From contig NC_135355.1 of NCBI RefSeq assembly GCF_051622035.1, forward strand, positions 9,796,501 to 9,860,500: a stretch of 64,000 bases of DNA, given 5' to 3'. Source of the stretch: Arctopsyche grandis. Its lineage: Eukaryota; Arthropoda; Insecta; Trichoptera; Hydropsychidae. The notes beneath the pieces are model-generated. The model saw only the letters and a list, made by a program, of their open reading frames with translations. It was not told the DNA's origin and made no database searches. This document shows, piece by piece, positions 1,981 to 58,467 of the stretch. How positions within the stretch are numbered: the first letter of the stretch is position 1; each line of letters starts with the position of its first letter. The position numbers and the translations under genes are program-made.

Positions 1981-4900
1981 TTATCGCCTTTTACAACTGC
2001 AACTTTGGTCATCAAAATATGTGCCAGTACTGCACTCGGAAAGTTCAATACATTCGCAAGAGCAGGTGGAAGAGTTCCAATAGCGATCATTCTGATTCGA
2101 ACACCGTAACTCAGCTTGAATATCTCGGCAAACGCATCTGCATTCATTGGCATTATAAACTTGATGACCTTTACAATCCTGCAACCGCAAATAAAATTGA
2201 AACATACACAAATCAAACATTTATTTCATATGCAATATCTAGAGATTTTCTTTTGAAACTATTTTCCACCGAATATCTGAACCAACGTGGTTTGAAAATT
2301 TGCTAAAATACAGTTCATGTGCATATGTATTTATATAATAGAAGCATTAGCAACTATTAAAGCAGCAGTGAAAAATAATATTTATACATATATCTTTTAT
2401 CCCACAAAGACGTATGTATTCTACAAATATATAATAAAACGGTTAAACGAAAAACTGGTCACACCCAAAAATTAAGAATTGCTCGAATTTTTGGGTGTGA
2501 CCAGTTTTTTCATGACCAATTTTCGGGTGTGACCAGTTTTAGGGTGTGACCAGTTTTCTCGTGACCAGTTTTGGCGTGACGGATGATCACGAGTGACCGA
2601 TCTAGAGCGACCAGTTGTCCAGTGACCGGTTCACATTTGACTAGTAATCACCGAACCATATTATACATACATATGTACATAGCCAGGCGTCCCGATTAAT
2701 CGGGATTGTCACCGGTTTTAAGCCTCGTGTCCCAGTGTCACGAACGAACCTTTCGGGACGCACAAAAGTCCCAGTTTTCAAATTTTTCTACTATGCATAC
2801 TTTTTAAACAATTTTAAAGGAACAAATTGATGGATTAAATAAAGAAGCAGCAAAGTTTTATAAAACATTGACAGATTATTTGAAACAATAGACAATACCA
2901 TGTCTTTTCCTGGATGAGCTTGGAAAAAATACCAGAATGGCTAGATATTCCAAAAACGGTTGAATATTTCAATACGAAAAATATTATAACAAATGACACA
3001 TATTTATTTGTTCAATTTGTTTCATTAAAAATATATTAATAAAAATAATTACAATCTTCAAATTGGAATGGAAAAATAGCTGTAAAAAAATGGGTAGTTA
3101 TATTTTCGCAAATAAAAATGGAATTTCCCGAACAATATAAAGAATTATATCGCATGTGCGAGTATATTTTCTCCATACCAGGGCATAACGGTAACGTGGA
3201 GGGAATATTCTCGTTAGTGGAGATTCAATGGACTGACGACAGAAATAGACTTTCTATAGATATGTACATATGTAGTTAAAAGTATTCTACAGTGCATTCA
3301 AAACTGTGATTTCTATTATTGCCAAATGTATGATTATGTATTTAAAAATAAAGTAGTCTTGCAGAAGGCCAAATCTAATGAAAAATATACAAATTGATAT
3401 TTAAAATTGTTTATTTTTGACTGTTCTTGTTCCAATCAATGTTAAAATTTGCTGATTTTATTTTCTTATTTAGTATAAATTAAAAATAATTAAGTAGAAG
3501 CTACGTGCCAGCCCAAGAAAAATAGAAGTGGTCTAAGAATATTGTTTATTTTTTTCGTGTGGGGGGTTCCGGTTTGATTTGGAAGAAATCTGGCAACCCT
3601 ATATATACGAGTACATAAAAATATATAAATATAAGTACTAGGTATATTGATGGAGATTTTTGACGAGGGAATGCGCCATCATAAGATAAAAACACTGCAC
3701 ATACAGTATAGTATAACAAAATAAATAGAATATATAATATTTAATGTAAGCATTTGTATATTAATTACACACCTTTTCCTTGATGGTACAATCACATTTG
3801 CATTTCAAATGTTCCTCCAGGGTAACATTGATGAACTTTTTGTAATGTGGCGAATTGCCATTCTGAGTTAACTCATAAATCTGTAAAACAAATACCAAAC
3901 CAATAAAATAAACTATTTGGGATTGTAAAACGTTTTTCTTTTTCGGAAAATAATTTTACTCTAAATTGTTTTCGTCCTATGTCTGTGGGTTCGCAAGAAA
4001 GCAATGCGTTATTGCAGCACCCTCCACATCGTAAAACTCTTGTACAAGATGGTAAATGAAAAACGCCACTATTCTCGGTACCTTCAGGAAAAAGAGGCAC
4101 CACTGTCAATTCTGGCATACAATTTGCTGATTTTGCAAAGGGAAGAACACCTGGAAATTAATAATTAACTGCTGGTTTTTCACACATTTTGCAACATATT
4201 AAATTTTTGTTTTTTCAATATTTACCTGAACGTCCCTTTGTTTCAAAACCAAAACGAGCTTAAACAAAAAAAATATATAAAATTACTTTTTATTGATTAA
4301 AATAATTGTATTATGTACGTATAAAACTCTTATAAACTCATATTTATACTGAAAGTTTTTGTCAACAAAACATACTATTATGAATATTATTTATAAAAAA
4401 AGTTAAGCTAAATTTGTTTATATGAAAATTTACAATCAAAGCCTTATTTTAAAAAATATTGATTGAACACATTTTTAAGTAAATTATTTAAGTACATAAA
4501 TATGTACATATATAGACGATTCATAAGAAAATACTTGTAAACAAACATTTTGACCAGTGCTGTGTCCTTTGTGGGCAGGACATATTGATAATGGGCCATA
4601 TTGATAGCATATTATATGTATAAATTAAATAATGTCCACAGGCTACCGGAAATATAACAAACAACATTTTCTTGTTCCACTATCAACCTAAAGAGGTACC
4701 TGGTAAATTCTTTTTTTTTTTAAATAGTCAGAAGGAGAATTTTGGTTCTAACGGTTATTTGATACTAATAATTAAAATCAATACATCACTCCTTCTTGTT
4801 TAAAAGAATAATGTTATTTTTATTAATTATAATAATTCAATGAAAAATACAAAGCAGTTGCTTAGTTCGGCCCGCTAAATTCCCATTTTATTCATCCGAC

Positions 4901-9900: not shown

Positions 9901-12900
9901 GGTTTTAAGAAATTACCAAGTTTATATGGTATATAAACAAATGCCCTGCACTCCGTTAAAGACGTTAGTGTTTTAAGTAAAGTAGATATATGTAAGTAGC
10001 GATCACAGATTAGTCCGTGCCAAGATGGCCATTAATATAAATTGCGAACGTAGGAAATTAATAAAAGGATGCAGTAACTCTCCAGATTTCGCTCAACTAA
10101 GGTCTAGGAAAAAGGAATTCGAACTCGAACTTGGAAATCGATACGGGAAATTAAACCCAGAAGCAGACATCGAGGAATTGAACAATGTAATTAGTTCGGT
10201 TCTAACCTCAACAGGTAAGAAATTAGTTGGACTCAGGAAACAGATTAAGCTTAGCAAAATTTCAGAGGAAACCAAAAATCTAATTAAGCATAAAAGGAAG
10301 TTAGATAGGGATAATAATAAGCAAGAATACAATCTAGTAAATAAGGAAATTAAGAAGAGAATAGTCAGGGATGTCAGGGATTTTAACAGCAAGCTAATAG
10401 AAAATACCATTAAGAATAACCGTAGCCTGAAAAAGTGCAAACAAGATCTTTTCTTAGGCATAGACCAAATGATCGCAATCAGATCAGAGAGCGGAGTAAT
10501 AATTAGGAATAGAGAAGAGATCATAGACAGAGTTTATACGTTCTATGCAAAACTTTACGAGAACAACAACGGTCAATTTCCCGTTCCGGAATCGACACAC
10601 GGCCAAAGGGTTCCTGCAGTATTGCCTAGCGAAGTAGAGGCCGCGCTAAAAACTGCAAAGAACGGTAAAACCCCAGGGGAAGATAATATTCCCATTGACT
10701 TACTAAAATGTGGCGGCCCCCCCCTAATTAATATCTTAGCTAGGCTTTTCAGCAAATGCATCCAGAACCAAGCTATACCAGAAGGATGGAATAACGCAAC
10801 TATCATTTTAATACACAAAAAAGGCGACAAAAGCGATATCAAGAACTACCAACCCATTAGTTTACTTTCAGCGGTCTACAAGCTCTTCACGAAGGTTATT
10901 ACAGAAAGGCTGAAGAATATCCTCGACGAGAACCAACCTATAGAGCAGGCAGGGTTTAGGGCAAATTTCAGCACAATGGACCACCTCCAAGTAGTTGGCG
11001 AACTAATCGAGCGCGCCAACGAATATCAACGGCCATTGTGCCTAGGTTTCGTCGATTATGAGAAAGCCTTCGATACAGTTAGTCATAATGCAGTACTTAA
11101 CGCTCTACAAACACAGGGAGTGCCGGAACCCTATGTGGGACTGTTAGCTGCAATATATAAGAATGCCACAGCTTCGGTTAAAATTTTTTCAGGTATAGAT
11201 AGATTTAACATAGGAAAATGAGTAAGACAAGGAGATACAATCTCGCCCAAGTTATTCAATGCGGTGCTTGCGGGAGTTTTCAGGAACTTGGATTGGGATA
11301 CAGCCGGAGTAAGCATCAATGGTCGCTTCATTCACCTTCGGTTCGCAGACGATATAGTTTTAGTAGCTCGTGATTCAGCTGACCTACTTATCAGACTAAC
11401 ACAGCTGGACAGAGAAAGAAGAAAAGTAGGATTAAAAATTAACGTAGATAAGACCAAACTAATGTTCAATAGTTATTGCATGCCTGATAGCATCCCCTTA
11501 GATGATAAACCAGTAGAAGTAGTAAATAATTATTTATATTTAGGTCAAATAATTGACATGTCTGGTAGTAAAGATGAAGAGATAAAGAGACGTATGAAAT
11601 TAGGATGGAGTGCATTTGGACGGATGAATGCTGATTTTAAATCAAAAATGCCACTCTGCCTGAAGAAATGGATCTTTGATCAATGCGTTTTGCCAGTGAT
11701 GACGTATGGATGTAAAACTTGGACACTGAACGCCAAGATGCTAAATAAAATCCAATGCACTCAAAGAAGTATGGAACGCTGTATGCTTGGCATAACGAGG
11801 AAAGACAGAAAGCGGAACACGTGGGTGAGAAATATGACAAGGGTAGTGGACATAGTGGATAGAGTGAAGAGATTGAAATGGCAATGGGCGGGTCACGTAG
11901 CTAGGAGGATGGACGAAAGGTGGACAAAAGAAGTGCTTAAATGGTACCCGAGAGAAGGCAAAAGAGTAAAAGGAAGACCGCAAGGAAGATGGGTGAACGA
12001 AATTAGGAAAATGTGCGGAATGAGATGGATGAGTGTTGCGCAAAACAGAGACGAGTGGAAGCGTGTTGGAGAGGCCTTCATCCAGCAGTGGATGGCGAAT
12101 GGCTGTAAATGATGATGATGATGATGATATTTTATTTAGAAAGTGAAAAAATCGCCACATAATTATTTGACCCGGAGATTTTTCTTTTATGTAAAACCGG
12201 AACCCGGATATTGCTAGTAATACCTAGAGTACGGACCCAAAGCGCGTCGCTCATTGTTCAATTGTTGTAAATGCTTTGTAAAAAAAGGTTCGGCAAACCT
12301 TTAACAATGCATTTACAACATTTGAACATTGAACGGCGCGCTCTGGGTCCGGGCTTTAGTAATAACCGTGCCTATACCGTGTAACCAGACAAAACGACTT
12401 TAATAGTAAGAAGTTCTTACTAAGAACACACTAAATGGCATAGACGTGCTCATGGTTTCTAACTGTGATGGGCGTATCTTCATGTCATTATTAATTTGTA
12501 CGATGCTAATTTTTCGACCAGTTTCTCTTATATTTCTTCAAATATGGGAATCACTATCAAACCTAAGTCAATACAAGTCAATACATAAAATATCACTGCA
12601 AACACAGGGGGTGAGATTTGCCAGGGATAGTATAGTTTAGGCTCTTTTTACGTGTGCTAAACTATCAAAACTCTGTGTGACTGCATCTCTTGTATTAAGA
12701 CCAATTGAACGGGAAAAACTTGAGGTCATTTGATGATGAACTCTTTAACAACGATGATTCCACGCCTCGAATTATTGTGCCAACCATTAATTTCTGAAAT
12801 TATGAATGAAGGATAATGACAGTCATTTAACGGTAGTGGTTTTTTTATCGATGCTTAAATGCTACATTTGAGATTCGTTCAAAACAGGTTACAGAAAAAT

Positions 12901-19404: not shown

Positions 19405-20492
19405 TTATTTTTTACTTTCAAACTCATTGCTAACTGCCTCAAAGTCTGCCAACAAATTCCTTCTACATTTGTTCTCATCTGTATATAGTATCGTCCATAT
19501 TATGTATTCACCTTTACAAACAGGATTCTCACTAAAAGCCACTTGCAATTTACATTGTCTCTCCCACTTAAATATATCAGCCCCTCTCCTACTTCTATTT
19601 TTTGAAAAATGTAAGATGCATGTTGCTTCCATGTAACTACGAGGCAGGTACGACAAATCTAAGTTCTTATTAAAAGTCTTCGACGTGGAACGTTTTTCAC
19701 TAGCAGTGACACTGTCTCGTGACTTTCCCTGGCTTTTTATACAATCATCATTTAAAAAAGCATTTCTCTTTTTATATAGACTCCTCAATTCGTATTTTAT
19801 ATGAGTGTTTGCTGCGTATGACTTATCTGACTTGATGCTTTCTTTTTTATCAAATTCTATTTTTACACTAGTTTTATCATTGGATGTTTTAGGTTTTTTT
19901 GACCGTTCCACTTCTGGGCTAGAAGGAAGACTCCGAGTGCGTTTACCTGTTGGACTTTTCGATGAAATCTGTTTAATACTCTTAAGAATCTTCAAAGGAG
20001 TAACTCCACTAATTGGCATAGCTAAATCCTCCATTGGAGTTACGTTTTTATCCCTGTAAAATAAAAATATATAAAAATAAACACAATACAACCAGCTTTA
20101 AATTCAAAGATTTAACAATCTTACCTTTTTTCCAAGTTAACCGTTTCTCCCCTCAATTTGATGGGTTCACACGACTTAACCGATGTAAAAAGATGACTAG
20201 TGCAATTCATGTCGTACTTTAAAAATCCAGTAATATCCTTTTTTGTTTTCACAGTGCGACCGAACCACTGCAGAACAGCATCATCAGCTATATACAATCC
20301 TAAATTGTTGCGATCCACGTCTATCAAATTATTGAACCATTTCCCGAAGGTTTCCGCTTGTCTACGCACACAAACCGTTGGCATGTTATTATTGATGACA
20401 TTCATGCACTCCTGCTTTCCGTAATCCAGCATTTTCGACGGTTTCTGTCGGAGAGATTGTTGGTATCTACGACTCGGAGAGTGAGTAGTCAT
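19405..20492 (-). CDS. NTF2-like-fold protein with a long basic C-terminal region, two exons
   Basis: Coding exons 20492-20125 and 20053-19405 (minus strand) join at GT-AG with an in-phase Arg codon, giving 338 aa. Residues about 20-120 look like an NTF2-like fold: a helix with ETFGKWFNNLIDVDRNNLG, then LYIADDAVLQWFGRTVKTK, then DITGFLKYDMNC and a strand-rich end. Residues about 125-240 are Lys/Ser-rich, probably disordered and nuclear (TGKRTRSLPSSPEVERSKK, with SP sites). The C-terminal 80 residues return to an ordered pattern (CILHFSKNRSRR, WERQCKLQVAF, EYIIWTILYTDENKC) that could be the missing strands of the NTF2-like sheet interrupted by the basic insert. I do not recognise the family by name and its function is unknown. 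The start gives the longest frame, and the gene follows a small gene by only 171 bases. Confidence 0.75.
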
Positions 20493-20612
20493 GGTCGGTC
20501 GACAATTCTATAATTAATTAATTACATTCAATGTGAGTGTTCACCCGCTTTAAAAGTGATCGTGATAAAAGTATTCATGATAATAAAACGAAAACATTTT
20601 CTATCGAATCAT

Positions 20613-43319: not shown

Positions 43320-44580
43320 CGAAAAATTACATACCGTGTCGAGCAGAGCTCTTATCGTCATGCGTTTGACGCTATTGCGAGTAAATTATTCACCCGTGAT
43401 GCTTATGCACATTTAATGCACTCTAACATTAATTGACTCCCTGTAAACCGGCTCGATACTTCTGAGAACATTAATTGGATAAGTGGGACTGTTAAGTTAA
43501 TTTAATTTAAAGTTTTTTGTGCGAAAAGCATCCATCGAACGCCGATCTTTGATTATCATACGACATCCAGGTCAGATGGTTTTACAAGCGGATTCAATTA
43601 ATTGTGACAGCTTTAGCTATAGGAACCCGCAATAACTGAAAATATAACTAGGAATAAAACGGTGGTTTTGACAACATACAATACGAAGTTTGAGACATTG
43701 TTAACAAGCCATCTTTTCTTTAATAAAGAAGCAGAACATTGCACTTTTACTATGCAAATGTTACATTTTCTTTATGCACCATATGTTTGTATGCATGTAT
43801 CATGTATGTACATGTTTGGTCTAGTTGCGAGTCTACAATCCATATTTGACCTTTGAATGAGATAGGGCTGTCTGGTCGTTCTATAATTTTTGTTTTTACT
43901 TCCCCAGCTCCGGAAATTATCTTTCAACGTGGGCAATGCGTTCTCATGAGATGGCATAAAGATTGTATTAATTGGTGGCTTTAATTAAAATTTACGTGAA
44001 GCAGATCGAATCGTTTGGTCATGCCCGAGTCCAATGCACTTCTCTTTTTTTTTACTTTTAATCTTACAAATCTGATTTTAAGAAGATGTTGAAATCAGTA
44101 CAATATCCTTCGTTCGCCATATGTCGCGTGCTCTGGGCCAGTCGCATCCAACATTTTTTCCACGCTGAACGTGCATACAGTTTGTAAATTTTAATTGACG
44201 ATCGAACTGGGCGCGAAACTAATTATAGGCATTAAAAGGAATCGATTTTATTTCATCTCTTATTGTCTTTATTTTTTGGCATCTTGTAATCCGTAAAATT
44301 ATCGCTGATACGCGCTACCGAATTGCGCGAGAGTCTGCAAAGAAAAAACCAGTTAACCCGGCGACTTTAAAAAGTGAAAATAAACATTTTAAGATGCTAC
44401 CGAATAGGTCATAAATCCACTGTCTCGCCTCTGGGTCTCTGGACCAAACAGGGTCGATTATTAACTTTTTGTCGTTCAAAAAATACGCAAGGTAGTCTTA
44501 TAAGTAGTGTTTTCAATGACTTAAATTGTAATTTTGTAACGGGTTTGTGTTCCCAATTAATGAAATGCTTTATTGTTACA
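43320..44580. promoter_or_regulatory. Repeat-poor upstream region of dap, candidate regulatory DNA
   Basis: Unlike its surroundings, this 1.26 kb shows no dispersed repeat that I can match elsewhere in the window and has a more balanced base composition. It has several homeodomain-type words (TTAATTGA, CAATTAATTG, TTAATTGG). A splice acceptor ending at 44581 closes it. The regulatory role is inferred from position and composition only. Confidence 0.3.
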
Positions 44581-44673
44581 GATCTCTCTTAGTCACTTGG
44601 AAGCCAATTTACCTGAATGACAACTTACAGAAGATTGAATCCATTCTACAATTCGTTTGATATCTAATTAGCC

Positions 44674-47600
44674 ATGACTGTCGAAACGCAAATGTCTGAC
44701 GTTGCTAGTCACCAGCTGTCCATCTTGAGACCGGTGGAAAACATGGACATGTCTCGACATAGATTGTGCCTCTTTGGAAAGCCAGAATTGGGCAGTGCCG
44801 ATGTAATGTTGACCCAGCAGTTCGATGTGGACAGGAAGAGGTTCATAGATAGATGGGGCTTTGACATACTCTCCCACGAACTTGTCAAGCCCGTCAAGGT
44901 GCCAAAGAAAATATCCAAAGCTTCAGAAAACAAAGAGAACGTGGACGCCTCGTCGCAGGACAGGAAGAAATCGCCAGGTTTCTGCGACCACACACACAGC
45001 AAATGTAAAAAGAACGACAAGGAGAACAGATGTCCCGATTGTTCTAGTCCTAAAAAAACGCTGAAGATGATGAAGGAGAAGACGTACGCGAAGAAAGGCA
45101 GACAAGCGCAGATGACTGGTGAGTTTAATGCACCCAACCTGTGCAGACTTTTTGTCCCGTTTCGTTCTTAGATTTTAATTGGACTTTTTATGCGACATAT
45201 CATTTTAACGATATTTTTTTCGGAATCGAGATTGAGCTTTGATCCTGCACGTTGATGTCTAATTTAATTAAAATACTTCAGGACCATTTAAAAAACATTG
45301 GACTTACACACATATGTGTATGTATGTAGTTGCCTTGGATTTTGACGAGATTTAATTTAAGAAAATAAATAAAAAAATACGATGTCAATTATAGATATAT
45401 TAGCTGCAGGCGATTTTGAATGTTGCGAATTGAGTATGTTGGTATAATTATTTTTCCATTAGTGAACCATTGTTTCCGATTAGATTAAAACATATATGGC
45501 TAACCTGAATACAAATTGAGAAAAACATTGCTGATGTACGTACATACGTATCAATGGCGTGCCGTAATATTCTACATGTTTTTGTCGCACAGCCTTACGT
45601 GTGCGCGAACAGAATAAAAGGGGACTAGGTGACGTCATACCGAGTCCCCTTATATCCTGCTGAGATTTTCACCGCACGCTACTAATACATACATATGTAC
45701 GTATGCATTATACTTTTGCCAAGACTTACATTTATATTGATAATTGATAATGGATACATTCATATATATTATCAGCTTCTGCTCATTTCCAATGTACATA
45801 CATACATATAATCTATGACGGACATAACCTAGCTTAGTATCTGGTCCATACAAGCCAGCTTATTTCATCATAATCAAATAAGCGCCCCTTTATGTTTTTT
45901 AATAGCTAAATGCCAAAACCATAATGTCAGAAATAATAGTGATATTGACTTCTCACAGAGCTCAAATATTATTTTGATTATTCTTAATTTGCTGAAAATT
46001 CTTTCGGCCATGGCTATTGACGCTGGCGTTGTCAGAAATATGCGTATACATAGCTTTTAGAATACATACTTGAATGAGATTCTTGTACATCCCACTCTCT
46101 CAGAATATCATTATGATAAATAGTGCTCGGATCTTTATTTTCCAATATTTTTTTATTTCAGTTCATTTAGTAACTTACTTTTGTCTATTTCTGGGTATCT
46201 CACCGACAATATAATTCCTTTTTACATACCTCTTATACAGTTCACATGGTTTTTTCATCTAATTCTTATATTGACAATGAAATTAAGCCTTCCCCGGTCA
46301 AAAACGTAAAGGAGGTATGTAAAAATACATAGAAATCTGTCGAATGCAGTTGTCAAATGCGGAATTACCAAATTTTATTCATAACGAATGTCGTCAATAT
46401 ATGCATGTGATCATGTACTTTAGATTCTAAATTGTTTTGAATGACATTGGTTTGAAAGTTTCGATTTATTTAACAATTTTCAAAACCATCGATCATTTTT
46501 ACGCCAAAATCTAATTGGATGTGCGCAAGATTTGCGTAATTGCGTAAACTTTTGATAAATGTATTGTTCATACTGTATTTTTATTCGTAAGAAAGTTTTG
46601 CTTCACGCTCCGAGCGTCCTTTAGACTTTTGCGCTCTTGACAAATTTCCCGTTGCCAATGCCTTGGTACGGTTCTGGTTATTTGGTAAGTGATTTGCTCA
46701 TTTTAATCTATAAGAAAATAGCTTATGTGTGTAGAAAGAGCACATACATAAATATGTTCATATATGCAAGAATACATGCATTTATGTATGATCCTTTTGA
46801 CTCTCCAGATTTAGTATGATTCTTTAACTTTGAACTTTGACTTCGTTCGCTCATTAAAATTGCTACTCACATTGCTAACTACAAGGTTGTTGTAAAAGTA
46901 TTATGCTCCGCAAAAACGTTTTATTTCGAATTGTATTATAATGCCATTGCTTATAAGTTATAACCTAAGAGCATTGAACTTAGATAGTATACATATATGT
47001 ACCTTGTCTACCCACATACATAATCAGATGCACCTCGAGTCATTGGAGTACGTGTATAAAGCGGTTCTGGATCTCCACTTTTCATAAACTACTTTTTCAC
47101 TGAACTTTGACATCTGTCAAAGTTCAGTGAAAAGTTCGGTGCATTCGAGAGTTGGGTAGTCAAATTTTAACACTGCAAGCTCCTTTTTTTGTGCAACAGC
47201 GTCAGCGTGAGCTGTGATAACGGAACACATCAGAGGTCATCGTACCATCGTCGCTGTCTGTATGTGGTAGATGAGAGTGCACCTATCTTGCGCAAACACG
47301 ATTCAATAATTCAAATGTTAATATGGAATATAAATTTTTGACTCTAGATACGGTAATTTGACGCTCAAGTTATTTGGATTTCTCGGCAAATTTTTAACAA
47401 AAAAAAAAATTTAACCCATACGTGTCGTGTCACAGAGTATCAAGTTCACACGGTCTCGGCTACTGCTAACTTTTTTGTTTCTTTAAAAGAAAAAAAATGC
47501 CGACAAGATCTATAGTTGGAGATTAATTTGAGTCGTTTGCTTGTCAATGAAAATGTGACGATCCGTGAACTGTTGCGGATTAGAAAATCGGAATATTCAC

Positions 47601-49600
47601 CAGTTCTGGGAACGCGTGACTTTCGTGCGATATTTCTACTGCCATGCCAGAGCTATCACACGCCATTATAAATGCAGAGATGCCGTGTCCAGAACTTTGT
47701 GTGATACGTATTTTGATGTCTTATGCTAATTCATTTCAAATTTGTCGATGAAAGGAAATTGGTCCGAGTTTGAACGAGTCACGTAGTCTCGTTGTGGTTT
47801 ATGGATTCTTCGCTAATGACTCACCTTCTAAGGAAACAATGCGTGATTCGCTGAAAGATTTTTTTTAAATATGTAAATATGTATATTATCTCTTTTAAGG
47901 TGGTATATATTCTATTTTTTTGTTCTAAAATGTAATTGGTGTATTTTTCCAATTTTAGAGACATTCTCGCATGGGAATTATGTATATGCTAGTGTGCCGC
48001 GAGATCTCGGTATTTTTTTTTGTCCTTTTGTTCGATGCAACCTTCTTTCTACCTGTCTTCCGTGTTCACCTTCCTTTTCTTGAATGCGTCTATTGAAATC
48101 GTCGACCTGTGCATACAAGTGCATCTACCCACCTCGCATTTTGGCGGGAACTTTTCACTCGTGCGACCAGGTGTTATGAACCCACAGTCCAATCTTTCAA
48201 TTGAAAGGGCTCAATTTATAAGAAAAAATAACCCATTTTTTCTCAAAAACATAATTTTACTTAAATTTTTTTTAATTATTCATTAAATTTAGAAGCTTTT
48301 GCGCTTAGAAAACCAGTTTGCACATTTTGGTATGCTGGTGAGTTTTTCATTTGGGTATATACCTGGGCGAGAGGATGATGCGTGTGGGGGTGTGCACAAG
48401 GTGCAGCCACAGCCTCCCGGCAGATGCTGGCCCAATCCCTTCTAGGGCTTTTGGGACGAGCAGAAGAGGGAGGCCATCAGCTGCTTGCTGCCACCTGGCT
48501 CACCCACTTAACCAAAAATACAAAAATCCACATGTCGCCGCGTCTGCGCCAACATCACACAGACAAACCGACATATGGATATATGGATATAATGCGTAAC
48601 AGACGAAACGCACCTTTTCGTATTTTCAAATCTTAACTGAAAAACACGCCGGACAATAGAGTGGTTCAACTCTTTCAAAATTACAATACTTGAATATGTA
48701 CAACCAGCAATGTGTTTCCTATTTCGATGAGCTCGTATTTTAGCAACGGTTGCAAAAAAAAAAAAAAAACAGCGCGTATTACAATTACACATTCGCTAAA
48801 GTTAAAATCCGTGAAGTTATGTTTGCCATATAAATATTAGATTTTTTCAAATTGGAAACCATTGGCTTCCAATTCGGTAGATTAGGCGTGCATCCATGTT
48901 TTTCTTACAAGAGTTATAAGTACACACTTCCAATCACTATTTCACTACACATTTGTCTGTTTTTTTTTTTGCAAGCTTTTTACTACTTTACTACTTTACC
49001 CGGCTTCGCTCGGTATTTGATATATAAACGGCTTAAACATGGCCAATCTAATAGTAGACATTTTATTAAATTTATTTGAATACTTTTATTTTATTTAAAT
49101 TTATTTGAATATCCATTTGTTTTTTTATTAAATTGAACGTTACGGAATTTACGACCCAAACAAACAAACAGACATACAAAGTCTCTTTCTTAGATGCGGG
49201 GGGTTACGGGGGTGATTCGTAGTGGGGTTAGAGGGGGGGGGCATACGTACTTTAATCTGCCGAAAACGAAATGCTTTCGCGTGTACTTCGTCAATTCTAT
49301 TAATCGCACCCGAGCAACGTCTGATAATGCAATGCCCGTTGATGCAAACAGAAATCGAGTTAGTGTTTTATATATTAGATACATCCATTACATTCCACAT
49401 GTTTACTAACTTAGTGTACATATGTATGTGTTTTTCAATATTACTTCTGCTGAACAGCAGCAGTTGGAAACTATTAAAAGGTATATGCATTTGGCGTAAC
49501 GGATTTGTCAAATATTAGACCTCTCCTTAATTTTACCAAAATATGGGAAAAAGACATAGATAAATTAAAGCTGTGTTTCAGATCTGTATACATACATATG

Positions 49601-49691
<91 letters not shown>

Positions 49692-52600
49692 TCCACAGCC
49701 ATTCAACATCTAGTGCTGGATGAAGACATCTGTAACACGCTTCCACTCGACTTTGTTTTTCGCAACTCTTACCTATCTTACGCCACACATTTTCCTAATT
49801 TCGTCTACCTATCTTCCCTGCGGTCTTCCTTCTACCCATTCTATCGGGTACCATTCTTGCACCTCTTTTGCCCACCTTTCGTCCATTCTTCTAGCCACGT
49901 GGCCCGCCCATTGCCATTTCAATATATTCATTCTATCCACTATATCCACCACCCTTGTCATACTTCTTACCCACGTATTCCGTTTCCTGTCTTTCCTCGT
50001 TATACCAAGCATCCAACGTTCCATACGTCTTTGAGTGCATTGGATTTTGTGTAGCATCTTGGCATTCAATGTCCAAGTTTCACATCCATACGTCATCTTT
50101 TTCTTCAGGCAAAGTGGCATTTTTTATTTAAAAACCGCATTTATTCGTCCAAATGTACTGCATCCTAATTTAATACGTCTCTTTATATCTTCTTCTTTAC
50201 TACCGGAGATGTCTATTATTTGACTTAAATATAAATAATTTACAAATAACGTTTGATAAATTAAGAAACACTGAAGACTGCTTAATTCCAAATGCTCCGT
50301 CCATCTAATCGTTGTAATCGATTGATTAAAAAGTCAGATGAAATTGTGCAGTTACATTTATTTTATTGTACGTTCTTAACGAAATATCAAATTCACAGTT
50401 GTTGTGTTCGTGTTCAAGAAGATAATGAAGATTATACATATATATGTATGTTTCTGTATTTTCTCGTTTCATTGCTTTCTTGGGGATCAACGACTTGCTA
50501 GTGTCGAAAAAAAACCCAACATAGAACGTTTACCCCGACAAATCATTGATTTAGCATTCACCGTCGATTCCTTTCGGAAACTAAAGTCCGAAGCACGTTT
50601 CCCAGCTTCCTGTTCCTCTGATATAATGCATGCATCTTTGTTTTTCGAAATATACGTGCGTTCAAGACTGTGAAGACTGAAGAACGTATAATTAGTCTAG
50701 CCTTATGTTGAATAACCACACAATTTCCAACCGAGACATTTCCGATTTCGAACTCGACGAACTTTAGTTTATAAAGACGAAAAACTTAATTAGCTGTATC
50801 CAAATATTTACTCTATTTTCGTTAGTCACAAAAAAAACGTAGAACAATTTTTTAACTTTTAGTTCTCACAGTTTTTTAACATTTTTTTTATTTGAAACTT
50901 GAGCGATAATTTCAATGTGTTGCTTTGTATTTGTGACAGAATTTTCAATGCGATTACGTCCATGACTACGTACAATGGAGAAGATTTTTTTCTTTAAAAT
51001 ACACAAGATTTTAATAATAAGTATATTTTTTTTAATAATAAATATAAGTAATTATATAATACTATATGAATAATATTTTGATAGCAGAATTGCACTTTAA
51101 ATATAATTAAGTAACCGAAAAATACACAAATCTCGCGAAGTGAAATATTTTACATACTGATATAAACTGAGAGGCCTTCATCCAGCGGTGAATGGCGAAT
51201 GGTTGCAAATGATGATGATGATATAGCCCGTGCGCTCCGTTTTACCAACTTGCAATATCTCGGGACTCGATTTCTCACATTTTCGCCTGCTTTAAACAGG
51301 AGTTTGTTTATTGTATACATTCACAAATGTTTTTACTTTATCTTTTTGCATACATTTATGTAATATATTTAATATACGAGATATATTGTGATAATTATTA
51401 GATTTGTATGCCATTAATACCCCTTTAAAATATTTAAAAACATTTTCGTACATGTATGTGCTATGTATATATGTTACAGTTCCAGCTGTAATATATTTTG
51501 ACTGGTTGGAATATATTCCTTCTAACCTGGTACCAACTACCGTTGTAGTTGAAGTGTATTTTCAGTTGTAATACATTTGGGATATATTCCGTCTAACTCA
51601 CGTAAGTTGATTGAAATGGCGACTAACAATCCGACTGATCAAAATATATTACAACTAAAAATACAGTTGGTTTTTCGTGAAAACGTCACTTGACTAGTAA
51701 ATTGAGTTGGAAAGTCACATTTTTGTTTTGAACACATTTTTATTAGAATTACCCTAGTACGTAATACATTACCTTGATTCATAATACCCAGAAAATATTA
51801 ATGCATTATTGAATTAAAAAAACATCAGAGCTGTCAAAACTCAACTATTATATTACAACTGGTGCACATTGTTGAAAGTGCAGTTGCCCTTGTAGAGATA
51901 TAATTTACTAGTTTAATTGAATTCGAACATGAATGATCCAAAGCGCCAGTTGGAATATATTACAACTAAAAATACACTTCGACTGTAGCATATATATGTA
52001 CAATCTCGACGACGAAATATAACTAAAAAGTTGGGAAAACGAGTCTTGAGATATTACAAGTTGGTGGAACGAGGTAGATCCTGATATAGTATAGATAAAG
52101 TAAAAAAAAAAGACCAAATAGTCCAATATTATTTATATTTTTATGTCGTTTCGTTTTGGGGGAACTTCCAGTTACAATTTTTAATTGTTTTCAATATTAA
52201 TTTTCTTTCGACGCGTTTTTGCTTCTCAGTGTAATATTGTAGCACACATAGTTTTGGTTTCAGTGGGAATATGGCTTTATGGTACGCTGGGTTTTCACGC
52301 AAGCATGATCGCAGACTTGCTTATGACCTTATTTCATGTAACCAACCGACACTTTATATTGCCTCGTTTCAGTCAGCAACCCCTTTGAAAAACCATTTTT
52401 GTGTTTCCCACAGCCATTATCTCGACTTGTGATATATTATGGGATACGATAACCTTGCACTTCATCAGAAACATTTTAAAAAGATAAATATAAAACAGCC
52501 TACTAAGTAGCTAGGGAAAAACAGACATTCGAATGGAATTTGCTAAACGCTTTGAAACTTCAGTTTAACTCGCGTTTCTTATCTGCTTCATGGACTTTGC

Positions 52601-55600
52601 CGATAAGAACCACTCAAACTTTTTTTCCACCACCTGTATAATGAAACTATCTCGCTTCTAAACAGATTCGTATAAGAAAGTTTTTTTTTTAATTTTGTTA
52701 ACGTAACATTTAAAGGGGGACGATGATGCCACACATCAAACAATGTCTTTTCCCCTTAAAAATGAACAGTCGTACGCCCCTGGTGACCTTCGTTTTTATT
52801 TCGAATATCATTTTCAAACGATGATTTTGCTGTTGTATCTCATCTACCTCGGTAATTTTACTAAAAAAAGACACAAACAAAGTATTGTCTATGATTTATA
52901 GCGTGTACGCCTCAAATGGCCCAGATTCAACATGAAATTACATATAATCAGTCTTCTACAAAAAAACTCAATTGTACTCAAATATAAAAAGATACATTGG
53001 ATGAAACTATTCGTCATTTTTTTTTTTAAATCTTTGATTTTTCTTATTCTTTCTGGGTATATGGTGAATTACATATAATGGTCGCATATTGTACTAGAAT
53101 TAGTTAATTTAAGTGAACTGTAGGACGTAGGGTGAGTGATGTGCTCGATGCCCACCCCCATTGTTCATTGGAGATGACAGTGATGACGATATCAATATTT
53201 GGAAAAATTAACTCTACTCGGTATACTTCGAAGTATTTAACTCTACTCGGTATACATTTCTTCCTGAAGGCGTTTCTATTATTTACCATGTATTGGTTTA
53301 ATGTAATTATATATACATATGTACATATGTATGCATGTTATTATATCGTTATTGATTAGTTACGCTTAACCGATGATTTATTGTATCGAAAATATATTCG
53401 GAGTAATCGTGCATTGAAAAATAAATACTACATATACATATGTACATATGTTGCATGATTTTCAGTTTTCGTTATTTTCCAAAGCTGGGTGATTATACGT
53501 CTACGAATATTACTTGCATTAATTCAATTTATATTTGTATACGATTCTATTTGAACAAAAAATAATCATCATCATTTTAGTTCTTTCATATAAGTTTAAT
53601 TTGTTTTTTTCAATCACTATTATTTGACCACATTAAATAATGGTTTGTTCTTAATTGATTCATTAGGAATAATTTTTATTATTCCAGTCCACGTTCTAAC
53701 CCTTTAGCACCTGCGTGTGTAGTCATCCAAAATCGCATCAACTTCACTGGTGACTTCATCGCGTACAAAAGGTCATTATACCTCAACACATCATATTACT
53801 CTGAACCGTTCGGGCACAATTAAATTATTTTGTGAAATGTATGTTGGTAAAATATAAAATATTAATAAATCTACGAATTTTGGATAAGTAGTTGATACGT
53901 TAATTATTTATTTTCGTTGGCGAAACTGCCACAGACTAAAATTAGATATTTGTTTGCATTGCATTTTTGCTATTTTTTTTTAAATATTTATTATTTATAA
54001 TATTTAAAATCAATTAAATATTTTTTTTTGAAAAAAAAATATTTTGTTAAAATTTTAACATAAATATATAATTATTTTTCAATGTGAACATATCGAAATA
54101 TATTATGTACGATACATATTATATTTTGTATATTCATCATTTCTAATTCAGTAAGTTAACGGATTGCGACATCTGTTGTATTTAACAAAATTTACAAGCT
54201 TTTTTTACTTTTCACTATACATATTTTGCAACCGTTATAAAATTTATTTTGACATTTTCTTTTAAAATTTAAAAAATCTCGCCATGACATCTTTTTATTT
54301 TAAATATGCTCGTATTTTTGTAATATGAACGCCATCTATACTTTTTTCAATATTTACATAGATGTCTCTTTTCACTATTTCTAAATTTCTACACGATTAC
54401 CAACAGTTTATTGATACTTTTCTAATATGATTATTTTGAACTGAAATTGTTTCCTTAATTCCTAATACGTACTTTACAGCTGTGGATGATTTTTTCGATA
54501 GTTTTATATTTACAAAAATCTTTTTATTAATAATAATTCTTTCAATTTTGTGATAAATTTTAGTAACTGAAATATAATTTTCTTTAATCTGAATTTTATT
54601 AAACTGCAAATTTATTTTATTCTTTGTAATTGATGTTTATCAACTTTTAGTGCGGAATCCATACTATTTGAATATCTTTATAGATTTAAGACTATGTAAT
54701 TAGTATTAGAATAATATTTCATAAAAAAATCTTTTGTTTTTTAGTTTAGTCGGTCACGATTTTTGGATAAAAAAAATGCTAAACTGTTAGTCAATTAAAT
54801 CATACATGTCCTATTTTTAGTCAACGTGATCGTTATTAATTTAATCCGTCAAATTATTATGGTGATTAATGCGAATTTGTAGTAATTAAACAATGTTGAT
54901 TCTTCCATTATCCAATAAACGTGCGCTCACCCATTGGGACTAAATATGTACAAATCTCACACAACATTGCTAATGATTTCATAAACAATTCATTCACTTA
55001 AATTAAAAACAGTACTTTTTTATGTACATATTTATCTTTGGACGTACATTCATATTTGATTTGGAAGATTTTTCGATCAGTTGGCATTTGTAATTTTCAA
55101 AATAATGGGGAGCACGCGAATGTAATCGAATCATAATGCAACTGTCCCGCATCCTATTACCATAATGACAGCACTTGTCAACTGTGTTTTGTGTCATCCA
55201 AAAGCTTCCCCCCCAATCAACCTAAAAAAAAAACAATTTGGAAAGGTGCATGTACTTACAAATGTCTACCATTTCACGGTCAATTTGGAGCTGTTCGCTA
55301 GATACATCGAAAATGTGATATATGTGTATGCGGATAGAATGGAATATAATAATGGACTTTTAAATTAAATCGATACTGCAACGGAGTATGCGTCACCTAA
55401 ATATGCTAATTATACCACAACTTGACCGTAACAACTAATGCAATATAAATTATTCATAGATATCTTCCCCCGTAATCGTAGGGGGAATTCATTTTGGGGA
55501 TGGGCCAGGTGCGTCCACTTCGTTTCAGATCCTTATGGATTCTTTGGATCCCATTAAATTTAATTGCAGTATACATAAAATCTACTATCATATCTATGTA

Positions 55601-57879
55601 ATCGCTGGTAAGTTACGGAATGAAAGTATTTAATTTTAGAGTTGCTTTTCTATTGCAGTAATATTGACGTTGAACTACACTCTTCGTAAGGTATTGACGG
55701 TAAAAAATATGTCTTTAAAATCCTCGTATTAGATATACCACATAACAATAATAGATATATTGTATTATTGAATAGAATAGTACTTATTTCGTTGAATAGT
55801 TTACCCGCCGACTTACAGCAACGTCTCTGTTGTTCTGTGAAATTATCGTAATAAACGAAAACATCGTCAATTCTAATGTTGTTTTCAATGCAAATACAAT
55901 AGTTACAAGGATAAAATAATTAAATATTTGCCAAGCAGCAGCTCTGGTATTTTTATTTTCGAAAAAAAATACACTGGTAGTTCTATACTTAAACAAGGGT
56001 TTCCAATTAAGTGGATTTTGAACCACCAAATCAATGAATCATCAATCAATGTATATTTTCAAACCATTCCCACGTAAATCCCAATTATGTTTAATCAGTC
56101 AATTCGAAAATGAAAGTGTTTGTTTTTTTCAATATTAATAATATTTTTATTATTGATTAAAATTAAAAAATAGCTAATTTTACTTACCGATAATTAAAGA
56201 AGTTGCAGTTACGTTTATATTTTTAGGGTTCAAAATTTATTTATTTTTGAATGTTTATTTACGTTATATAAAAATGATGATATATCTCGTTTGGAGGCCC
56301 CTGGATATTGAGACCCTAAGCTTAAGCTTTTTTTTAGTAAATAGGTTACATATAATATGTAGGTAAATCCGGCTACGCATATGGTGAAACATAACCATTG
56401 GCTTCGGAGCGTGGCAACGAGCTATCATACAAGTACCATAAAACGCCCTAGATTATGGTATAAAATATTTTTTTATACAAATAAAAACATTTTAAAAATT
56501 AGCCACTTGGAGCTGAACCGAAATCCGGAAAAACCCCTACTTTTTCCGAAAAGAAAACCGGAACCGAACCGATATAAATTTTTCAATTGGACCAGAACGA
56601 AAAAAAATAACGATTTGAAGCCCTGATCTCAAAAGTCAGGTTATTTGCCGATTATTTGCTTGGTGTGGCATGCTCCATACAACTGCATACATTTGAGCTG
56701 CACGCGCAACAAAGTTGCCCGCAAGTCGCCCAGTGTGTCCGGGCTCTTTGCGACGGAAAGCACACGTTCGCTTGTAAAATACATTGACTATCGATGTCAA
56801 TTATGTTTCTCACAATTCAGTTTCTTTTTCAGAAAAAATAATGTACCTGTGTACATAAGTCTCGAATTTTGTGAACATCTTATAGTGAATAGTGTATATA
56901 TTTTATTATTATTAATTAACCGGATAAACGAGCGAATTACACCGGTTTTGAAAGTATAAAGTATTAAATACAGCGACCTTTGTATAATATTTCACAAATT
57001 TATAATAAACCTCACTGTTTATGAATATCCATACGTTTGCATTCTAGACTAAACACGCGGTTGATTTGTCAAATATATACATCATCGATCTATGATGTAC
57101 AATTAAACTAAGTTGCTTAACTTTCATATTTAAATTTTAATTACAGATGAGTTAAGATGAAGTAATGGTTCAATTCCGCGAGCCAACTTACTTTTAGTAC
57201 TAACAGTAGACGGAACTCAAAATATGACAATTGCTGGAAGCGTCTATTTGCTTGAACGAAAATTTTGAATTGAATTTGATGAATTTGATAGTCATCGTTG
57301 CGCCATTATAACCACGAGGTATTCCAATTGGGCATCATCAGACGGGACATATGCTCGAGCGGCTAATTGCGTGACACTTTGGCACGCGTCCATGTCCACC
57401 TTTCTAATTAATTCTATAGGGGATGAGGTGGGGGATGGTGGCACGCGTCGAAGCCCCCATAACAAAATGCCATGTGCTCATTTGAATAGTGCATACGTAC
57501 AATGGTTTATCAGATGGATAATCTAGCTACGATACGACACGGAACGTACCATATGACCGAAATATGTACATACATATGTAGATGTTTCGGTGTTTGTGGT
57601 TTGTATCTGTTACGATGTTTTTCAATCAGAATGTATATTTTGTATCCTATGAATGTCTATCTGCATACATATCTATGTATCGTGCGGTTTTAATAAAACA
57701 ATGGTCATTACTGTCTATCAGTATATGCAGGATGAGAAATATACATATATGTACATATGTGCTATGTAGATTTAATAATTTTTTTTTCTATTTTATAATT
57801 ATGTTTTTCTTTTTTTGCAGAGTATTGGATGCATCGCAAAATGTCAGAGTCATCATCATGCAGTGACAAAGAAAATTAA
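44674..57879 (+). CDS. dap: Dacapo, Cip/Kip-family cyclin-dependent kinase inhibitor, two coding exons
   Basis: Binds and inhibits cyclin/CDK2-type complexes in the nucleus to hold cells in G1. Exons 44674-45118 and 57821-57879, with donor GTGAGT and acceptor TTGCAG, give 167 aa. The CDI domain occupies residues about 29-72: RLCLFG (33-35 LFG, cyclin-binding edge) and RWGFD (60-64, the conserved [KR]WxFD). The following region is Lys/Ser-rich with CDK-type sites S100-P and S125-P-K-K. A Cys/His cluster lies at 104-123. The splice junction completes a PIP box, Q144-A-Q-M-T-E-Y-W151, followed by a basic residue at +4, as in p21. KEN motifs occur at 87-89, 116-118 and 165-167. AATAAA overlaps the end (57880). 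Family call strong; exon 2 is supported by the reconstituted motif and phase. Confidence 0.88.
45580..45668. mobile_element. Small foldback in dap intron
   Basis: AAAAGGGGACT and AGTCCCCTTATAT face each other around a GTGACGTCATACC centre. The outer words (GTCGCACAGCCTTACGTGTG, TATCCTGCTGAG) recall the 15361 foldback family. Probably a diverged member. Confidence 0.5.
45669..48984. other. dap intron interior, no gene seen
   Basis: Includes a near-perfect palindrome at 47092-47134. 47500-47860 is unusually balanced in composition but has no open frame. The GC-richer block 48360-48560 has an open frame without any recognisable motif. I see no exon. Confidence 0.4.
48985..49110 (-). repeat. Dispersed repeat with CCCGGCTTCGCTCGGTATTT
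   Basis: TACCCGGCTTCGCTCGGTAT, then AAACGGCTTAAACATG and ATTTTATTAAATTTATTTGA, is the reverse complement of 27000-27085. A partial copy is at 61020-61140. Confidence 0.65.
49605..49689. repeat. (TA)n microsatellite abutting a LINE 3' end
   Basis: About 84 bases of alternating T and A directly against the 3' end of the reversed LINE fragment, where the simple-repeat tail of that LINE is expected. Confidence 0.95.
49690..50248 (-). pseudogene. 3' fragment of the RTE LINE reverse transcriptase
   Basis: On the minus strand this reads as the C-terminal part of the 9948-12112 protein: YGCETWTLNAKML, RRMERWMLGITRKDRKRNTW, RVVDIVDRM and WAGHVARRMDERW. Compared with the longer copy it lacks about 30 nt after CCTGAAGAAA (near 50093) and has other small indels and a stop. 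It is 5'-truncated at about 50248. Orientation is opposite to dap. Confidence 0.85.
50249..51167. other. dap intron interior, no gene seen
   Basis: AT-rich sequence between two LINE fragments. The open frames at 50292-50673 show no recognisable motif. Confidence 0.4.
51168..51226 (+). mobile_element. Terminal 59 bases of the RTE LINE with (GAT)n tail
   Basis: GAGAGGCCTTCATCCAGCGG...GAATGGCGAATGG matches 12068-12108, followed by TGATGATGATGATATA. It is a severely 5'-truncated insertion. Confidence 0.8.
51227..52080. mobile_element. 854-bp element inserted in the LINE tail, 8-bp target duplication
   Basis: TGATATAG flanks it at 51219-51226 and 52081-52088. Subterminal inverted repeats of about 40 bp (ACCAACTTGCAATATCTCGG near 51244; AGATATTACAAGTTGGTGGA near 52050) define the ends. 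The interior is packed with direct and inverted copies of GGAATATATTACAACTAAAA-type words. No coding capacity. Confidence 0.75.
52089..57379. other. dap intron interior, no gene seen
   Basis: Mostly AT-rich. 56500-56626 ends in GAACCGAACC and GAAGCCCTG text typical of a decayed hAT-like end. I find no splice-flanked exon with a protein signature, nor any tRNA or hairpin RNA I would defend. Confidence 0.4.
57380..57449. promoter_or_regulatory. Two copies of TGGCACGCGTC in dap intron
   Basis: The 11-mer TGGCACGCGTC occurs at 57380-57390 and again at 57439-57449, inside a GC-richer, repeat-free block 57280-57470, some 370 bases before dap exon 2. CpG-containing 11-mers are rare in this AT-rich window. 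A cis-regulatory role is speculative. Confidence 0.25.
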
Positions 57880-57885
57880 AATAAA
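57880..57885 (+). terminator. Poly(A) signal word at the dap stop codon
   Basis: AATAAA begins immediately after the TAA. If used, the 3'UTR would be only about 20-30 bases. A second AATAAA lies at 58050-58055 and gives a more ordinary 3'UTR. Confidence 0.4.
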
Positions 57886-58393: not shown

Positions 58394-58399
58394 AATATA

Positions 58400-58467
<68 letters not shown>
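58394..58467. repeat. (TA)n microsatellite
   Basis: About 70 bases of almost pure alternating A and T directly at the right edge of the nested hAT-like element. Confidence 0.92.

Follow-up and report, generated by a model that had tools for sequence, protein, structure and literature searches.

The dacapo-like gene of Arctopsyche grandis described here is best explained as encoding a divergent CIP/KIP-type CDK inhibitor in which a short C-terminal exon completes the PIP box, the intron that interrupts the box being probably an old intron of CIP/KIP genes; we put the probability of this reading at roughly three in four. The locus would constitute a new example of a PIP box split by a CIP/KIP-type intron, and binding of its product to PCNA is predicted from the protein sequence. 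With ordinary splicing, the C-terminus would dock on PCNA in S phase, the basic residues at positions +3 and +4 (R154 and K155) would then permit ubiquitination of the inhibitor by CRL4-Cdt2, and clearance of the inhibitor would leave CDK2 free to act. The passage of an intron through the PIP box would in this case reflect the history of the gene and would not by itself make a switch.

Gene model and splice junction

Within the window (the whole 64-kb stretch of DNA that was analysed), the open reading frame begins with the ATG at 44674 on the forward strand, preceded in frame by a stop at 44665, and its first coding exon, being 445 nt long, ends in phase 1. The donor after 45118, GTGAGT from 45119 (CTG/GTGAGT), is consensus-like, and the acceptor reads ...TTTTTTTGCAG, its last base being 57820. 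The intron splits the codon of Glu149 as G/AG, and the spliced product comprises 167 aa (504 nt of coding sequence) with the C-terminus ...KKGRQAQMTEYWMHRKMSESSSCSDKEN followed by the stop. The junction 45118/57821, which had been proposed from the letters of the DNA only, proved exact with respect to the sequence join, the GT-AG boundaries and the reading frame, which continues to the TAA. Coordinates of the features are collected in Table 1. The first coding exon has 47.6% G+C and the intron 32.7%, a contrast of the kind that coding sequence would be expected to show when the genome is AT-rich. Immediately 3' of the stop codon, AATAAA at 57880..57885 on the forward strand represents a possible poly(A) signal, and AATAAA/ATTAAA hexamers are seen again from 58038 and 58050.

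Table 1. Features of the dacapo-like gene (positions in the window)
Feature	Position	Strand	Description
First coding exon	44674..45118	+	445 nt; CDI-like region, basic linker, QAQMT (PIP positions 1-5) and first base of the position-6 codon
CDI-like stretch	44767..44877 (aa 32-68)	+	PF02234, below cut-off; contains LFG and RWGFD but lacks the R-x-L spacing
PIP box 5' codons	45103..45118	+	Q-A-Q-M-T and G of Glu149
Intron	45119..57820	+	12,702 nt, GT-AG, phase 1, inside the PIP position-6 codon; carries two LINE 3' fragments
Read-through tail	45119..45171	+	17 residues (GEFNAPNLCRLFVPFRS), then TAG, if the donor is unused
Last coding exon	57821..57879	+	59 nt; AG of Glu149, YW (PIP positions 7-8), MHRK (K = +4), Ser/acidic tail, C-terminal KEN, stop TAA

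The strength of the splice sites was estimated using simple and approximate donor and acceptor matrices, entered by hand, which make no use of the protein sequence. By these approximate matrices, the donor at 45118/45119 ties for rank 1 among the 706 GTs between 44,700 and 57,800, and the acceptor at 57821 holds rank 1 among the 485 AGs between 45,180 and 59,000. Coding consequences were considered for the 446 AGs that lie 60 nt or more beyond the start of the intron: two aromatic residues at PIP positions 7-8 were supplied by 14 of them, three of which also add a basic +4 residue. The 13 AGs other than that at 57821 were examined as possible acceptors and rejected: the two that add the basic +4 residue have poor pyrimidine tracts (53% and 29% as against 82% at 57821), and the AG at 48976 has the best tract among the 13 (88%) but ends in AAG and is without the +4 residue. 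Upstream of the ATG, an acceptor-like site (TTTTGTTTTTACTTCCCCAG, 43888-43907) reaches a matrix score of 8.70, compared with 8.67 for the acceptor at 57821. Such a strong acceptor-like site before 43908 makes a 5' untranslated exon possible, and the segment termed exon 1 in the sequence-only reading is consequently to be understood as the first coding exon only.

As for the contents of the intron, no non-coding RNA was recognised, as nothing in the window matches Rfam at the gathering score. A LINE-type reverse transcriptase is encoded at 9986-12112 on the forward strand in two adjoining ORFs, with RVT_1 detected in both. An intact mobile element inside the intron was considered and discarded on a BLAST search with this LINE region as the sole query, which gave two fragments only, matching the 3' part of the element at 49688-50240 on the reverse strand (82% over 586 aligned bases) and at 51169-51222 on the forward strand (93% over 54). 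Elsewhere in the window, an exon with a PDGF/VEGF domain (PF00341, 55 bits) is found at 3876-4157 on the reverse strand and possibly belongs to a Pvf-like gene, going by its domain match. Also on the reverse strand, 19405-20507 contains a pair of long neighbouring ORFs, of 230 and 128 aa, which gave no Pfam match at E 0.01 and are possibly exons of one gene. The last exon is flanked by long (TA)n runs at 49606-49677 and 58395-58466, separated by 8,717 nt and 97% complementary to each other along 72 nt; these are simple repeats, probably of no meaning.

The PIP box and its degron-like features

Residues 144-151 of the spliced protein, QAQMTEYW, satisfy the definition of a PIP box (Q-x-x-[aliphatic]-x-x-aromatic-aromatic), in agreement with the earlier assignment of Q to position 1, an aliphatic residue to position 4 and aromatic residues to positions 7 and 8 of the joined exons. 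The protein has a single match to the canonical pattern, which turned up in 692 of 200,000 shuffled versions. It also has one match to Q..[ILMV]T[DE][FYW][FYW]...[KR], which was seen in a single one of 200,000 shuffles, a count to be read in the light of this pattern having been composed after the sequence was seen and broadened to admit Glu and Trp. A chance motif was set aside, being disfavoured by the shuffle counts together with the splice-site ranks.

The signature of a PIP degron is given as T-D at positions 5-6 (PMC3973308, PMC6881253, both in excerpt), although the wording of the latter is that the degron 'often carries a TD', and Phe or Tyr is named there as usual at position 8 (PMC6881253). 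In the dacapo-like protein, positions 5-6 are T-E and position 8 is Trp, which is aromatic but not the usual Tyr or Phe. In view of T-E in place of T-D, along with the unusual Trp at position 8, we class the motif as a PIP box by definition which is degron-like, and not as a PIP degron. The substitution of Glu for the Asp of degrons, as well as the basic residue at +4 (K155 in MHRK), had been pointed out in the sequence-only reading and both are borne out. The N-terminal flank of the motif is strongly basic, and positive charge flanking the motif is described as strengthening PCNA binding in the portion of PMC6881253 that deals with it. The TE pair and the Trp may tune the affinity.

Human p21 and Drosophila Dacapo are the known systems to which this protein may be likened. 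The PIP box of human p21 is placed at aa 144-151, with TD at 148-149 and a basic residue at R155, in the relevant section of PMC7349641; the numbers of the box, of Thr148 and of the basic residue 155 match those in the dacapo-like protein by coincidence. The motifs themselves differ, human p21 having QTSMTDFY, with TD and FY, where the dacapo-like protein has QAQMTEYW. A 22-residue p21 peptide is contained in PDB entry 1axc, the original p21-PCNA structure, as mentioned in parts of PMC6881253 and PMC7349641. Local alignment to human p21 gave a score of 33; when the C-terminal 37 residues were shuffled 20,000 times this score was reached 56 times, and when the full-length protein was shuffled 5,000 times it was reached 36 times. 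The earlier description of the PCNA box as 'p21-like' holds as regards the match to the PIP box, whereas the resemblance to p21 in the flanks is modest, as seen from this score. Drosophila Dacapo is a CIP/KIP inhibitor reported to have a PIP box (PMC1805432, in excerpt) and to be lost in S phase by degradation via a PIP degron (PMC5586379, likewise); our protein is likened to it by description.

Probable relationship to CIP/KIP inhibitors

A search of Pfam-A reported CDI (PF02234) as the sole family, with E-values of 0.0013-0.0035. The whole protein scores 17.8 bits (E 0.0035), the first exon taken alone 18.0 bits and the N-terminal 81 aa 19.2 bits, all short of the gathering cut-off of 25. 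The cyclin-docking consensus of CIP/KIP inhibitors is R-x-L-F-G. At 44755-44778, the corresponding box reads RHRLCLFG, in which LFG is kept and the Arg lies one place further from it, and an [RK]-x-L occurs just once in the protein, as KTL at 128; the R-x-L-F-G box is thus absent. The displaced Arg, judged by its spacing, may imply weaker or re-aimed cyclin binding. The form RXLF is named in a figure legend of PMC3973624, seen as an extract. W-x-F-D is present, since RWGFD aligns with KWNFD of human p27 (the p27 sequence having been entered by hand). In p27, W-x-F-D forms part of the kinase-binding region. Local alignment to the same p27 sequence covers 25 residues around RWGFD, stops short of LFG and is without a shuffle control, and inspection by eye of the residues after RWGFD revealed no FYYRP-like segment.

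With CDI below the cut-off and R-x-L missing, the CDI match could be spurious and the protein no CIP/KIP inhibitor, its PIP-like tail being that of another disordered PCNA client; a search of PDB sequences with the whole protein, which found no relative (the single match, at E = 2, being a Nudix protein), points the same way. We consider this very improbable, as CDI is the only Pfam-A family reported at the E-values given above, LFG and RWGFD occur in the proper order, CDI lies towards the N-terminus and the PIP box towards the C-terminus, and p57 has its intron at the corresponding place. Membership of the CIP/KIP group is favoured by the combination of an N-terminal CDI-like region, a basic middle, a C-terminal PIP box, the size of the protein and the position of the intron. 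Considering the sub-threshold CDI score and the absence of R-x-L, the gene is probably a divergent, dacapo-like relative, and not a confirmed member of the CIP/KIP family. The name dacapo, as used in the sequence-only reading, is in keeping with the sole Pfam-A family and with the order of LFG and RWGFD; in view of the CDI cut-off and R-x-L it is probable and not proven, and we retain it as dacapo-like.

Searches for relatives in two collections, of organisms unsuited to the question, gave 28 pattern matches with 0 confirmed in genome_contigs and no match in viral_contigs.

The protein also contains three KEN tripeptides, at 44932-44940, 45019-45027 and 57868-57876 (aa 87-89, 116-118 and 165-167), in the contexts ENKENVD, DKENRCPD and a C-terminal DKEN. 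Three KEN were reached in 5 of 300,000 shuffles of the 167-aa protein, a count made for a motif picked after it was seen. The KEN tripeptide, which we take to be an APC/C degron motif, would make these three possible APC/C degrons beside the PIP box, and they may be no less worthy of notice than the intron.

Age of the intron and the question of a switch

A comparison with human p57 is informative about the age of the intron. Three CDKN1C variants, c.821-2A>G, c.821-3C>G and c.821-9C>A, are given as lying in an intron (PMC12604900, in excerpt), from which it follows that an exon begins at c.821 and that an intron lies between c.820 and c.821; p57 is described as encoded by two exons only (PMC7575724, in excerpt). 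The variant c.820G>A, or p.Asp274Asn, is placed within the PCNA-binding hot-spot, the disease codons of which include 272, 274, 276, 278 and 279, while codon 281 is associated with growth restriction without adrenal disease, according to the part of PMC6713069 concerned. Taking Ile272, Asp274 and Phe276 as PIP positions 4, 6 and 8, which is our own assignment from their spacing, codon 274 corresponds to c.820-822 and the intron is deduced from these published variant names to cut PIP position 6 after its first base, in phase 1. The dacapo-like gene likewise has its intron in the position-6 codon in phase 1; the two differ in that p57 has Asp at position 6 and Phe276 at position 8 where the present gene has Glu and Trp, and in coding length, which is 951 nt in p57 (from c.951+2, PMC12604900, in excerpt) as against 504 nt here. 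The agreement in intron position is a supporting feature and not a classical CIP/KIP criterion, and was established with one vertebrate gene. An N-terminal CDI is also a feature of p57.

For an intron placed uniformly in a coding sequence of 504 nt, the chance of such a coincidence is about 1 in 504. The same position and phase in p57 make it more likely that the split was inherited than that it is special to the dacapo-like gene, a comparison which was not part of the sequence-only reading, and the PIP-splitting intron is probably an old inherited CIP/KIP intron on the strength of this positional match. An independent gain of the intron, in which the match with the codon and phase of p57 would be due to coincidence or to a preferred insertion site, is unlikely in our view; two genes were compared, p57 by way of the literature, and the chance would be higher than 1 in 504 if introns favoured this site, but the position and phase coincide inside an 8-residue motif in what is probably the same family. 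Among the other human members, p21 is cut after c.445 and p27 after c.475, at the corresponding place, but these two positions carry no weight in the argument made here. A literature search for these two positions yielded nothing usable: a c.475G variant, taken up as a candidate for the p27 position, proved to be of BRCA2, and c.445/c.446 variants, taken up for p21, proved to be of MEN1. No statement that insect and vertebrate CIP/KIP genes share an intron was found among the open-licence papers searched, which is weak evidence of absence.

Apart from its age, the intron raises the question of what would be made if the donor were left unused. It had been claimed that read-through ends 18 codons later, and this is what we find, 17 residues being followed by the stop codon at 45169-45171 as the 18th. 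A read-through isoform without the PIP box is possible but conjectural. Within 1 kb after this stop there are five AATAAA/ATTAAA hexamers, the nearest at 45267, 45364 and 45368. With 253 such hexamers on the forward strand of the window, or about one every 253 nt, their density is about that of the rest of the window, and they were rejected as support for read-through.

The clean tail and the hexamers could nevertheless be taken as signs that the intron is a regulatory switch, in which read-through ending at a poly(A) site within the intron, or else the use of an alternative 3' exon, gives rise to a PIP-less, CDK-blocking form that escapes PCNA and Cdt2. In line with such a form, PCNA-site mutants of human p57 are described as losing PCNA binding and being stabilised (PMC4389716, in excerpt), and the CDKN1C variant c.787+4A>T, named on another transcript, is listed in IMAGe syndrome as a variant of uncertain significance that is unproven at the RNA level (PMC12604900, in excerpt). 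As p57 has two exons only, c.787+4 should fall in the same intron as c.820/c.821. The numbering of the CDKN1C transcripts differs by 33 nt (c.787 versus c.820). Although this human variant makes read-through worth testing, it lends no support to it in Arctopsyche grandis. The acceptor-side variants at c.821-2, -3 and -9 are listed with the opposite outcome, Beckwith-Wiedemann overgrowth (PMC12604900, in excerpt); moreover, the hexamers are about as frequent as elsewhere, the donor is equal in strength to any in the region by the approximate matrix, and retention of the whole 12.7-kb intron is, in our judgement, implausible. Taken together, a regulatory switch is decidedly unlikely. A further extension supposes that the intron has stayed at exactly this nucleotide ever since insects and vertebrates last shared an ancestor because it serves as an RNA-level switch of inhibitor lifetime (splice versus polyadenylate), with the KEN layer (three boxes, one of them in the last exon) partly switched along; it is highly speculative and the most improbable of the ideas considered here.

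Returning to the reading of a divergent CIP/KIP-type inhibitor with ordinary splicing, the feature is real and was correctly read, and it is an ordinary one: a PIP box at the C-terminus, interrupted by a probably ancestral CIP/KIP intron. A PCNA tag completed by splicing has the appearance of an oddity, and the comparison suggests that it is rather a gene structure inherited in common with human p57, so that the homology of the intron and the TE/Trp variation are the points of note. The human gene gives the subject some relevance, as p57 that no longer binds PCNA is stabilised, and this loss is connected with IMAGe syndrome in the excerpted accounts (PMC6713069, PMC4389716). Across animals, it may be asked whether the PIP intron is ever left unspliced to give a PCNA-blind inhibitor. 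If the intron is ancestral, its position could help in recognising divergent CIP/KIP genes with CDI scores below the cut-off.
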